Shown here: one piece after another, positions 13,270 through 18,733 of the stretch
Layout: each line of letters begins with the position of its first letter
Numbering within the stretch: the stretch's first letter is position 1
IMG/VR virus record: IMGVR_UViG_3300038461_000026
Location: 1 to 52,647 of that record
DNA length: 52,647 nucleotides
Source: a virus
Direction: 5' to 3' (one strand)
Translations under genes and position numbers: made by a program
Notes under the pieces: model-generated
The model's input: the letters and a program-made list of their open reading frames with translations, nothing else
What the model was told of the DNA's origin: nothing
Databases searched by the model: none

Positions 13270-13644
13270 ATGTTTCACGTACCAAATAAAAACAGAAATA
13301 GAATTCACCCGCAATTGGGGTCAGATGACAATATTGGGAATAACGGATTATTTATAATTCCATATTTCAAGCCAAACGGATTAGAATTTAGAGTGATTGC
13401 ATCTGATGGAGAAGGCTGGGAACACGCATCAGTAAGCATTGCACTCCCGGAAAGGGTTGCCTTACGCTGTCCGACATGGGAAGAAATGTGCTACATAAAA
13501 AAGATGTTTTGGGATGAGGAGGATTGTGTAATTCAGTATCACCCATCAAAAAGTGAATATGTAAACTACCATCCTTTTGTACTTCATTTATGGAGGCCGA
13601 CAAATCAAGTGATTCCGATTCCGAAAAAAATAATGATAGGCTGA
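13270..13644 (+). CDS. DUF7694-type phage protein (124 aa)
   Basis: The protein carries a pattern common in phage replication regions: ASDGEGWEHASVSI, PTWEEMCYIKKMFWDEEDCVIQYHP, here in parts, and YVNYHPFVLHLWRP. The conserved acidic, Trp and His residues suggest a catalytic or metal-binding fold, but the family function is not established to my knowledge. I place the start at 13270, 10 bases after the DnaB stop. Its stop shares one base with the start of the following homing nuclease gene. Confidence 0.65.
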   Translation: MFHVPNKNRNRIHPQLGSDDNIGNNGLFIIPYFKPNGLEFRVIASDGEGWEHASVSIALPERVALRCPTWEEMCYIKKMFWDEEDCVIQYHPSKSEYVNYHPFVLHLWRPTNQVIPIPKKIMIG

Positions 13645-14231
13645 TGAAAACCATGGATGACAATTCGAGAATGCCGAAAAGACCAAGGATTTGCGGAATT
13701 TATAAAATACTATCCCCTTCGGGAAGAATATATATTGGTCAGTCAATCAATATTCTGAAAAGATGGGAAACCTATAAATATAAGGCCTGTAAAACACAAT
13801 CAAAACTGCATAATTCCTTTTGTAAGTATGGCGCAATTAATCATATATTTGAAATAATTCACTTTTGCGAGCCTAAGGAATTAGACGACCTCGAAAAATA
13901 TTATATAAATTTCTATGATTCCTGTAATCCGCATACGGGATTGAATTGTGTGGCCGCAGCAAGAGGAAAGGGAATTGTTTCAGCAGAAACCCGAAAAAAA
14001 CTATCAATAGCCAGACTTGGTTATAAACCGACAAAGGAGCATATTGAAAACGTAAGGAAAAACAGATTCAAATTTTCCTCTCCTAAAAGGAAGGTAATTG
14101 ATATAGAAACCGGGATTGTTTATGAATCAATGAAAGCGGCATCACTTTCTTTTGGAATAAAATACACAACATTAAAAATGATGCTGTACGAAAAGAACTG
14201 GAACCGAACTCCATTAAAACTAATAGTATGA
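13644..14231 (+). CDS. GIY-YIG homing endonuclease with NUMOD modules
   Basis: GIYKILSPSGRIYIGQS near residue 18 is the GIY-YIG signature; the following helix carries an Arg in LKRW and the conserved Glu lies in ELDDLEKYYI. Residues about 110-140 (SAETRKKLSIARLG, PTKEHIENVRK) are NUMOD3-type DNA-binding motifs. The last part (VYESMKAASLSFGIKYTTL) is a NUMOD1-like helix-turn-helix. This is the classic Seg-like layout of a free-standing homing gene. It starts in TGATG overlap with its upstream neighbour and ends in ATGA overlap with the resolvase, so it is precisely coupled into the operon. Confidence 0.85.
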   Translation: MKTMDDNSRMPKRPRICGIYKILSPSGRIYIGQSINILKRWETYKYKACKTQSKLHNSFCKYGAINHIFEIIHFCEPKELDDLEKYYINFYDSCNPHTGLNCVAAARGKGIVSAETRKKLSIARLGYKPTKEHIENVRKNRFKFSSPKRKVIDIETGIVYESMKAASLSFGIKYTTLKMMLYEKNWNRTPLKLIV

Positions 14232-16275: not shown

Positions 16276-16850
16276 TGGGACGTACAGAAATTAAAACTCA
16301 AATTGAGTATGACCGTTTTATAACAACGGGTTGTGAACCCTTAATTGATTCCGGGTTTGATATTGATATTAATCTTCGTGTGGAAATACAAAAGAAGATG
16401 TTTGGTGGAAATCCCGAACTCCCGGAGGTTCGTAACAAGTTCTTCCGGTGGGTTTGGGATAGGAAAGTTCATGTTTGCGAAGAAACAAAGGCCTTTTTGG
16501 GTCACGACATGAAAGCGGAATTTATGAGTCATATTCTTTCCCGGGGTGCGCATATTGAAATGGCATTCGACCCTCGAAATATTAATATTCTTTCGCCGGA
16601 CGCACACAGAGAATGGGAATCCGGCAAGCGAGAGAAGATGTATATATTCGCCAAAAACAAAGATCTGGTTGCGCTGCTGAAGGCGGATTACGCGGAGCTG
16701 AAAAACTATAACACATTCCCGGAGGAAAAATCAAAGGAAGCGGAGGGGTTCGTTCCGGGAATTGATGAAGAATGGATTTATGAGATTCTCGACAAAACGA
16801 ACGCTTTTGCCAAACAGCTAATTGAGGAACACTTCAAGCGGCATAAATAA
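16275..16850 (+). CDS. HNH-fold nuclease-like protein (191 aa)
   Basis: Residues about 65-120 carry an HNH-type pattern: RKVHVCEETKAFLG, then SHILSRGAHIEMAFDPRNINILSPDAHREWESG (split here), with His in SHI, Asn in RNINI and His in DAH where the HNH residues are expected. The flanks are helical. It differs from the homing enzymes in this genome and is packed with neighbours by overlapping codons, so it is more likely a resident phage nuclease (NinG-like role in recombination) than a selfish gene. Only one clear Cys is seen in the putative knuckle. Confidence 0.5.
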   Translation: MGRTEIKTQIEYDRFITTGCEPLIDSGFDIDINLRVEIQKKMFGGNPELPEVRNKFFRWVWDRKVHVCEETKAFLGHDMKAEFMSHILSRGAHIEMAFDPRNINILSPDAHREWESGKREKMYIFAKNKDLVALLKADYAELKNYNTFPEEKSKEAEGFVPGIDEEWIYEILDKTNAFAKQLIEEHFKRHK

Positions 16851-16857
16851 AAGTAAG

Positions 16858-17301
16858 ATGTTAAACATTCAAGGCAAATTAAAAACAGTACAGAATATGA
16901 AAACGGGAGTTAAAGTTACCGTGTTCTGCAAATGGGATGATATAAGCCAAGATGATACGCTGGACTTACTTCAGGCGGTTGGTTCTAATGGGTATGTAAC
17001 TTTTACACCCAATAAACTAAAAGCAGAAGTTGAGGCCGCACTTCAGCAGAAACTTGCAAGTATTAAGCCAGACCCAGTAACCGGGAGAAGTAAATCACAA
17101 ACGCTTCGGGATCAAATCTTGAAGTTCTGGAATCGGTTTTATAAAGGGAAAAAGGAATTTGCAGAATATTACGATGAATCTATGGACGTTCTAATTGGAA
17201 TGGTCAAAAAGAAAAATTCAAAAGCCGAAGTTGAAGAACTTGACAGGCATTATGGAGAAGCACAACATGATTATGGAGACACACTTAAAAAACTCGGTTA
17301 A
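16858..17301 (+). CDS. Early protein (147 aa), unknown
   Basis: I start at the ATG at 16858, which lies 7 bases after the previous stop and has an A-rich AAGTAAG leader; an earlier in-frame ATG is inside that gene. The N-terminal part is beta-rich (VKVTVFCKWDD), and about residues 60-130 are helical and basic (SQTLRDQILKFWNRFYKGKKEF). Possibly binds DNA. Next to the SSB operon. No family recognised. Confidence 0.55.
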   Translation: MLNIQGKLKTVQNMKTGVKVTVFCKWDDISQDDTLDLLQAVGSNGYVTFTPNKLKAEVEAALQQKLASIKPDPVTGRSKSQTLRDQILKFWNRFYKGKKEFAEYYDESMDVLIGMVKKKNSKAEVEELDRHYGEAQHDYGDTLKKLG

Positions 17302-17527: not shown

Positions 17528-18034
17528 ATGATTAACAAAGTGATTTTAATTGGACGTGCCGGGAAAGACCCGGACTTACACACGACCGAAAGAAAAAAAA
17601 CGGTCGTAAGATTTACGGTCGCTACTTGGGAGAATTATAAAGATGAAAAGGAACCCACAGGCTGGCGTCAAGTTACCGAATGGCATAACGTGGTGGTCTG
17701 GGGAGCTGCCGGGGAGTCTATTAAAAAGCACCTCAAAAAAGGCGAGCTGGTTTATGTTGAAGGAGGGGTAAGAACCCGGAGTTATACAGATAAAGAGGGC
17801 GTGACAAAGTACATTACTGAGATTGTGGGATTTGCAAGGGCACTCTTGGCAAAGAAAGACGCAGCCAGTTCCGGTACCGCAAAGGAATCTCCAAAGGGAG
17901 AACCCGGAAAGGCCTCAAAGCCGGAAGACACAGTGGATATCCATGAAGAAATTCCACCAGATGAATTAAGTGACTTACCATTCATTTTAACTATTCCGAT
18001 CGCACTTGGATTTTTGTTACAGTTTATGATATGA
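17528..18034 (+). CDS. ssb: Single-stranded DNA-binding protein with buried C-terminal tip
   Basis: Residues about 1-110 form a clear SSB OB fold (MINKVILIGRAGKDPDL, VRFTVATWENY, EWHNVVVWG, GELVYVEGGVRTRSY). A disordered linker and an acidic region follow, ending DELSDLPF at about residues 145-152. In other SSBs DxxPF is the last residues and is the docking site for recombination proteins. Here it is followed by 16 hydrophobic residues, ILTIPIALGFLLQFMI, before the stop at 18034, which overlaps the start of an inserted HNH gene. The insertion probably displaced the stop. The tail might block docking or tether SSB to membrane. Confidence 0.85.
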   Translation: MINKVILIGRAGKDPDLHTTERKKTVVRFTVATWENYKDEKEPTGWRQVTEWHNVVVWGAAGESIKKHLKKGELVYVEGGVRTRSYTDKEGVTKYITEIVGFARALLAKKDAASSGTAKESPKGEPGKASKPEDTVDIHEEIPPDELSDLPFILTIPIALGFLLQFMI

Positions 18035-18564
18035 AAAAGTGTTTTATATGCGGAATTGAAAAGGAGATAAGTGAGTTTTATCTTCATCCACACATGAAGG
18101 ATGGGCATTTAGGAAAATGCAAAGACTGTACTAAAAACTATGCTGATAAAAGGGACAAAATATTAAGACAAGATCCGGGTTGGTGTGAAAAGGAACGTAT
18201 TAGATCAAAGGAGAAATACCATAGGCTTAATTATAAAGTACAGCAATTTGCGCTTAATAAATCTAAACCTTACAAGAATGCGGAATATAAAGGGCAGCAT
18301 AAGAAATTAGCGTTGCCGAAAGGTAAAAATATCCACCATTGGAATTATAATATTTTAGATGATTTTTCGGTTTTTGACACGGCTTTCCATAGATTTATTC
18401 ACAGATTTTTAAGACTGGATAGTGAAACACTTTGTTTCAAAACTAAAGATGGAGTGCTTTTAAAAACAAGGGAAATTCATGATAGATATTTACTTGAACT
18501 AAAAAAGGAATATGATGGAAGCAAATACACAAACTACACTATTCGAACTACAGGAGGGCGATAG
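18031..18564 (+). CDS. HNH-type homing endonuclease-like protein (177 aa)
   Basis: The N-terminus (CFICGIEKEISEFY, then CKDC) is the zinc-knuckle opening common in phage HNH nucleases of the endonuclease VII-like type. The middle (NIHHWNYNIL) holds the HH that would start the HNH core, and FHRFIHRFLRLD continues it. The gene starts inside the SSB stop (ATGA) and its 3' end overlaps the next gene by 53 bases, so both neighbours were affected by its arrival. It is free-standing, with no sign of an intron. The C-terminal third is helical and basic. Confidence 0.65.
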   Translation: MKKCFICGIEKEISEFYLHPHMKDGHLGKCKDCTKNYADKRDKILRQDPGWCEKERIRSKEKYHRLNYKVQQFALNKSKPYKNAEYKGQHKKLALPKGKNIHHWNYNILDDFSVFDTAFHRFIHRFLRLDSETLCFKTKDGVLLKTREIHDRYLLELKKEYDGSKYTNYTIRTTGGR

Positions 18565-18733
18565 ATTCTACTTTGTCGGAGACCCAAGAAAGGCAGTTTT
18601 GGAAATCGGGAATGTTATAAAACATTACAGATCAGGCCGGGTACTTCATGTGATCTATAAAGATTTGAAAGAAGGACACAGGGATCGGCCAGTAGTTTTC
18701 CTGAGAAACATTAAAGAAGGGGTAAAAAAATAA
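18512..18733 (+). CDS. Small beta-rich protein (73 aa), unknown
   Basis: Begins MMEANTQTTLFELQEG; the second ATG (18515) is equally possible. Its first 53 bases overlap the HNH gene. The body is beta-rich (DRFYFVGDPRKAVLEIG, GRVLHVIYKDL). This may be an original resident gene whose start now lies in the HNH reading frame. No family recognised. Confidence 0.55.
   Translation: MMEANTQTTLFELQEGDRFYFVGDPRKAVLEIGNVIKHYRSGRVLHVIYKDLKEGHRDRPVVFLRNIKEGVKK

Follow-up and report, generated by a model that had tools for sequence, protein, structure and literature searches.

The tip of the window SSB and its tail

The free C-terminal Phe of single-strand-binding protein (SSB) is regarded as the end on which replication and repair proteins dock almost universally. 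In the viral record IMGVR_UViG_3300038461_000026, whose positions 1 to 52,647 make up the window, the SSB frame continues beyond SDLPF with ILTIPIALGFLLQFMI, and its stop overlaps the ATG that begins an HNH gene. This raises the question of where such a tail comes from and what it may do to the docking end. The initial annotation had already described this reading, and we confirmed it from the sequence; its starting position, 17970, lies inside the tip, and the tail proper begins at 17984. The tail of the window is called class A here, and a second tail, found in GenBank phages, class B. The features of the locus are as follows.

17528..18034, + strand: phage SSB (PF00436 / phrog_44), 168 aa, with a C-terminal extension (Pfam, PHROG, AlphaFold2 model)
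17960..17983, + strand: acidic docking tip DELSDLPF, internal and not terminal; LSDLPF also occurs in loci L204 and L205
17984..18031, + strand: class A tail ILTIPIALGFLLQFMI, 16 hydrophobic residues, also found on L087, L204 and L205
18032..18034, + strand: stop codon TGA of the SSB, overlapping the HNH start as ATGA
18031..18564, + strand: predicted HNH endonuclease of an ssb-tip-associated family, with an N-terminal C4 zinc motif and an HHWNY...H...H core (AlphaFold2 pLDDT 89)
18515..18733, + strand: next gene, which starts before the HNH gene ends and marks the right boundary of the putative inserted element

The window SSB matched PF00436 over residues 2-100 with 106 bits (cut-off 26; E 1e-30), and the OB fold was also present with high confidence in the AlphaFold2 model, in which the linker and the tail had a pLDDT of about 50 and the tail had no confident fold. 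A free acidic tip ending in Phe is typical of PF00436 SSBs and is not required by the Pfam model. Here the codon of Phe152 (17981-17983) is followed by 16 further codons, ATT TTA ACT ATT CCG ATC GCA CTT GGA TTT TTG TTA CAG TTT ATG ATA, and the tip is internal. The protein of the window is still an SSB by its domain, but it is without the canonical SSB-Ct. None of the 28 other SSB relatives that were read (33-51% identity) had a tail of the window type, and most of them, apart from two truncated by contig ends, stop at or near a tip-like end. A sequencing error that removed a stop after Phe152, as the initial annotation had considered, was ruled out, because contigs from two other metagenomes agree with the window, the tail included: one of 25,472 bases has a single mismatch and one of 7,757 bases matches perfectly.

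The same tail on unrelated proteins

IMG/VR was scanned with a strict tail pattern and with a relaxed one in which T3, P5 and I6 were left free. The strict pattern matched the window, L087 and L204, plus L201, and the relaxed pattern added L205, in which T3, P5 and I6 are intact though they were not fixed; these three residues are kept in every match, and about 0.4 chance matches were expected for the relaxed pattern (an estimate assuming uniform base frequencies). L201 was rejected as a fifth class A tail, because its frame has no tip and the match is due to chance. The tail of L087 is on a DUF3127/phrog_4932 protein (QIDDLPF-IFTIPITIGLLIQFMI), that of L204 on a phrog_6706 protein (ELSDLPF-ILTIPIALGFISQFIV) and that of L205 on a phrog_862 protein (DLSDLPF-ILTMPIALGLLTQFIF). 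All four bearers have exactly 16 residues after the tip. The tail of the window is thus more than chance, since three other proteins carry the same tail at the same length. Once their last 26 residues were cut off, the four bodies had no mutual BLASTP match. In GenBank, proteins related to the L204 and L205 bodies mostly terminate in the tip itself (NIPF, DIPF, DVPF, EPPF).

Among the 18 columns that vary between the four class A tails, 12 fall on third codon positions (P=0.0004, permutation), a test of limited power with only four tails of 16 codons, and pN/pS of the tail was 0.20-0.69 over six pairs, some values being near 0.7. From the excess of third positions and from pN/pS, we concluded that the class A tail is kept as a protein. 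Its conservation as a protein across unrelated SSBs also means that it is not an accidental read-through. At the DNA level, L204 and L205 share a 79-base block with 81% identity, which covers [DE]LSDLPF and the tail, and then the downstream genes, while the bodies are unmatched; the tip is therefore the junction of the exchange.

The class A tail was absent from GenBank phages in a protein search and from plasmids in a short DNA search, and the open-access literature, searched with one motif, contained no description of class A or class B tails. Upstream of the SSB, a 159-aa protein encoded at window positions 16822-17301, which has no Pfam or PHROG match, is a candidate partner; relatives of this protein (20-27% identity) lie close to the genes that bear the tail in L204 and L205.

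An HNH family that follows the tip

IMG/VR was also scanned with patterns taken from the HNH protein alone, giving 80 loci with 69 distinct upstream sequences. By an automatic rule, 62 of these 69 end in [ILM]PF or in the same motif plus up to 16 residues, and in five more the LPF tip came to light when a longer ORF lying further away was disregarded; in total, 67 of the 69 distinct loci have the HNH gene directly 3' of a gene with an LPF-type tip. The initial annotation was right that the HNH gene had landed just after the tip. Of the two exceptions, L139 has its tip behind an in-frame stop, and the upstream gene of L125 encodes a primase-helicase with the C-terminus PIPLEDIKF. Matches of the upstream proteins are to gp32, SSB, DUF3127 and further ssDNA-binding families, and in an alignment of 61 of them the tip residues L, P and F form the sole nearly invariant columns. 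With the tips removed, the HNH-linked, tip-bearing proteins fall into eight BLASTP clusters, and a tree of 66 HNH proteins has at least 19 switches from one ssb cluster to another, showing independent movement between genomes. These counts indicate a family dedicated to the 3' end of tip genes and moving among unrelated ones. We regard it as a tip-seeking, homing-type element with putative nuclease activity, as judged from its sequences: C4, C7, C30 and C33 together with H102, H103, H120 and H124 are invariant in 34 HNH sequences and form the predicted nuclease motif. Empty sites were found in UvsX-linked relatives, which are not the close kin of the window; there, the ssb tip and stop are followed by a short hairpin- or terminator-like intergenic stretch and UvsX, with no HNH. 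This pattern would be the expected trace of a free-standing homing element, and a homing activity of the HNH protein is putative.

In nearly all relatives the stop is at the tip Phe or at most six residues beyond it. Short ends after the tip Phe of HNH-linked ssb genes are N, S, NLEL, NVEL, NVGL and SQALAA; they were seen in L106, L108, L109, L113, L114, L118, L130, L132, L134, L140 and L156, as well as in L225 and L238. ECOO78 and Vibrio 466E53-1 have a common junction, CCTTTTAATTAAGTCC, as though the element had supplied AAT TAA. A PDB fold search with the HNH model had no significant match (PacI at E 5.8), and no open-access paper describing an HNH family after the tip was found. In genome contigs, a first scan had no match and a second one gave three distant zinc-finger matches.

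Several side observations concern the homing-type genes. Compared with most of its nearest relatives, the HNH protein of the window has 16 more residues at its C-terminus, reaching into the next gene (18499-18564). A canonical -1 slippery heptamer, A AAA AAG, is at 18501-18507, and a -1 shift there would stop the HNH protein at the TGA at 18513-18515, adjoining the next start. At 13590-14231 the window has a GIY-YIG homing-type endonuclease gene that shares its last four bases with a RuvC-like resolvase gene starting at 14228, and this is a second free-standing homing gene adjoining a recombination gene in the window phage. L220 has a PacI-like HNH gene (1293-1706), with the same N-terminal zinc motif and a different nuclease half, about 35 bases 3' of a ssDNA-binding-type gene ending in EDEDIPF.

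Tails with and without an HNH gene

An HNH gene adjoins the tail gene in the window and in L087; two of the four bearers, L204 and L205, are without one. The HNH protein of L087 is 60% identical to that of the window and has the same ATGA overlap. At L087 3001-3012, a TGA stands at HNH codon 4, replacing the first zinc Cys, and because TGA also ends other L087 ORFs, this HNH gene looks broken or decayed. In L204 and L205, the next gene follows the tail gene by about 100 bases and by four bases, respectively. No HNH relative was found in the records of these two; the L204 record is a 9.8-kb fragment, so an HNH gene elsewhere in that virus is possible. L204 and L205 may once have had an HNH gene and since lost it.

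The same tail without the HNH gene is what the initial annotation had named as evidence against its account, and L204 and L205 provide it. Its proposal that the arrival of the HNH gene cost the ssb gene its stop was not supported, on this point and on two others: nearly all relatives keep a stop near the tip, and a point loss was rejected, as the change of TAA, TAG or TGA to ATT takes three substitutions. A tail that places the SSB for the HNH enzyme is likewise disfavoured by the tails of L204 and L205 with no adjoining HNH gene.

Tails that are free of HNH are compatible either with a selected tail or with a scar left after HNH loss. According to the latter explanation, the main rival, the tail is the 5' leader of one HNH element, read in frame as a new end of any ssb gene that the element enters, retained solely because it has to be harmless, and outlasting a decayed or lost HNH gene. 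In its favour, the HNH proteins of the window and L087 form one clade (support 96/84), and the bearers make a graded series from the intact HNH of the window, through the TGA at codon 4 in L087, to none in L204 and L205. Other loci of the family also have short element-supplied ends after LPF (N*, S*, NVEL*, SQALAA*). Against it, I1, T3, P5, I6, G9, Q13 and F14 are invariant in the class A tails, a conservation beyond mere hydrophobicity, and the class B tail is kept in phages that have no HNH at the junction. We consider a scar rather unlikely.

A second tail in GenBank phages

Class B was found by following the N-terminal HNH domain into GenBank phages. This tail, AP[IV]GLQYG..., has 15 residues after the tip, and it is present on phage SSBs and on primase-helicases, in 155 phage records and 21 plasmid records at the thresholds used. 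For example, the SSB of phiEB49 and ACG-M12 ends in DDIPF-APIGLQYGMSNIYVL; EmilHeitz has DDIPF-APVGLQYGKSRIHAL, morffagbaw DDIPF-ASVGLQYGKHRIYAL, and Mt1B1_P17 and PsgM04F DDIPF-APIGLQYGRNFLHCF. The primase-helicase of Salmonella phage NINP13076 ends in DDTPF-APIGLQYANHAIYVL, and a near-identical tail is found in GAP31, which has a second class B tail match as well. Seunavirus phages carry the tail on the primase-helicase (L233, L234), and NINP13076 carries it also on the SSB (L240). The bodies belong to at least four unrelated groups. Class B is often without an HNH gene, as in the NINP13076 SSB, V039C, phi92, KpS11 and Proteus V3 (roughly 1 kb downstream examined); in these five examples, 15 of 15 third positions vary, compared with 4 of 15 second positions. 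A homology of class A and class B was rejected, because the tip is the only part that aligns in a profile comparison, and the two tails are treated as analogues.

Another explanation is that the C-terminal 19 residues, LPFILTIPIALGFLLQFMI, enter the host membrane and keep the SSB, and with it replication, in place there, which would apply to class A only. The initial annotation had suggested a membrane-seeking helix. Averaged over this 19-residue segment, the Kyte-Doolittle value of each of the four class A tails lies within 1.9-2.2 (2.2 in the window), which by hydropathy is the usual transmembrane range, so a helix of this kind is possible for class A; it is not for class B, which is barely hydrophobic (0.4-0.8). 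The segment also has conserved Pro, Gly and Gln and no flanking basic residues, and we think a membrane anchor improbable. Least credible of all is a recent frameshift in which a 4-base duplication (CCATT|CATT|TTAA) removed the stop in the window phage: the window sequence alone is consistent with it, and it is refuted by L087, L204 and L205, which share the tail, frame and length, L087 being without any TTTTAA trace (CCTTTCATTTTCAC).

A probable exchangeable module after the tip

In this study, we believed that the post-tip tail is probably a selected C-terminal module, horizontally exchanged among unrelated phage ssb genes. What was a free Asp-Leu-Pro-Phe-COOH end would now be internal, with 16 hydrophobic residues behind it, and recombination at the short DNA coding for the tip would carry the tail from one phage single-strand-binding gene to another, unrelated one. 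One vehicle may be the homing-type HNH family, inserting immediately 3' of the tip codons, whose member is still attached in the window.

When host proteins bind SSB, they bury its terminal Phe, and a basic lip grips the alpha-carboxyl of this residue (PMC10164576). Sixteen residues past the Phe remove this carboxyl, and canonical docking should therefore weaken. The idea of the initial annotation that the tail may block docking stands as far as the loss of the free Phe needed by host partners is concerned, and a weakened binding would be its consequence. The conservation of the tail was observed directly, whereas its function, hiding the tip and making a private contact, is what we infer from it. 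The tail may keep host SSB-binding proteins off the terminal Phe carboxylate, and it may be a docking surface of its own for a phage replication or recombination partner, less likely for the membrane. The conservation of the tails and the fact that in NINP13076 the SSB as well as the primase-helicase has a class B tail favour a phage-specific docking extension. As a tentative further step, to which we give somewhat less than even chances, a transferable extended tip could hide Asp-x-Pro-Phe from host SSB-binding proteins and dock SSBs and primase-helicases to a phage hub, with the tip DNA as the landing pad for HNH and tail swaps among unrelated replication genes.

Compared with the bacterial SSB-Ct (E. 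coli DDDIPF-COOH), the window SSB is alike in its acidic residues and L/I-P-F, its OB fold and its disordered linker; it differs in that its Phe is not terminal and 16 conserved hydrophobic residues remove the alpha-carboxyl contact (PMC10164576). The T4 enzymes SegG, encoded between genes 32 and 59, and MobE are free-standing homing endonucleases (PMC2988022) and a precedent for the window HNH gene, being likewise intergenic nuclease genes beside conserved replication genes, the SSB gene included, in the same orientation. In contrast, SegG is a GIY-YIG enzyme beside one gene 32 lineage, whereas the HNH family follows the tips of unrelated ssb genes, and its cleavage is putative. The HNH and endonuclease VII-like proteins (phrog_2340, phrog_1035; phiEB49 gp25; PacI) have in common with it the N-terminal C4 zinc motif and the HNH core; the HHWNY core is that of the window clade, and PacI is a weak fold match only. 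A tip association of phrog_2340/phrog_1035-type HNH proteins was not described in the papers searched. The class B tail (DDIPF-AP[IV]GLQYG...; phi92, V039C, NINP13076, Mt1B1_P17) is similarly a conserved extension, found on SSBs unrelated to one another and on a primase-helicase whether or not an HNH gene is present, but it has 15 residues, a different sequence and less hydrophobicity than class A.

If conserved tails that bury the Phe are indeed common to unrelated phage SSBs and helicases, phages would be rewriting the SSB docking code. If a nuclease family does seek the tip DNA in unrelated ssb genes, it would be a clear example of a mobile element whose landing site is a convergent protein motif.
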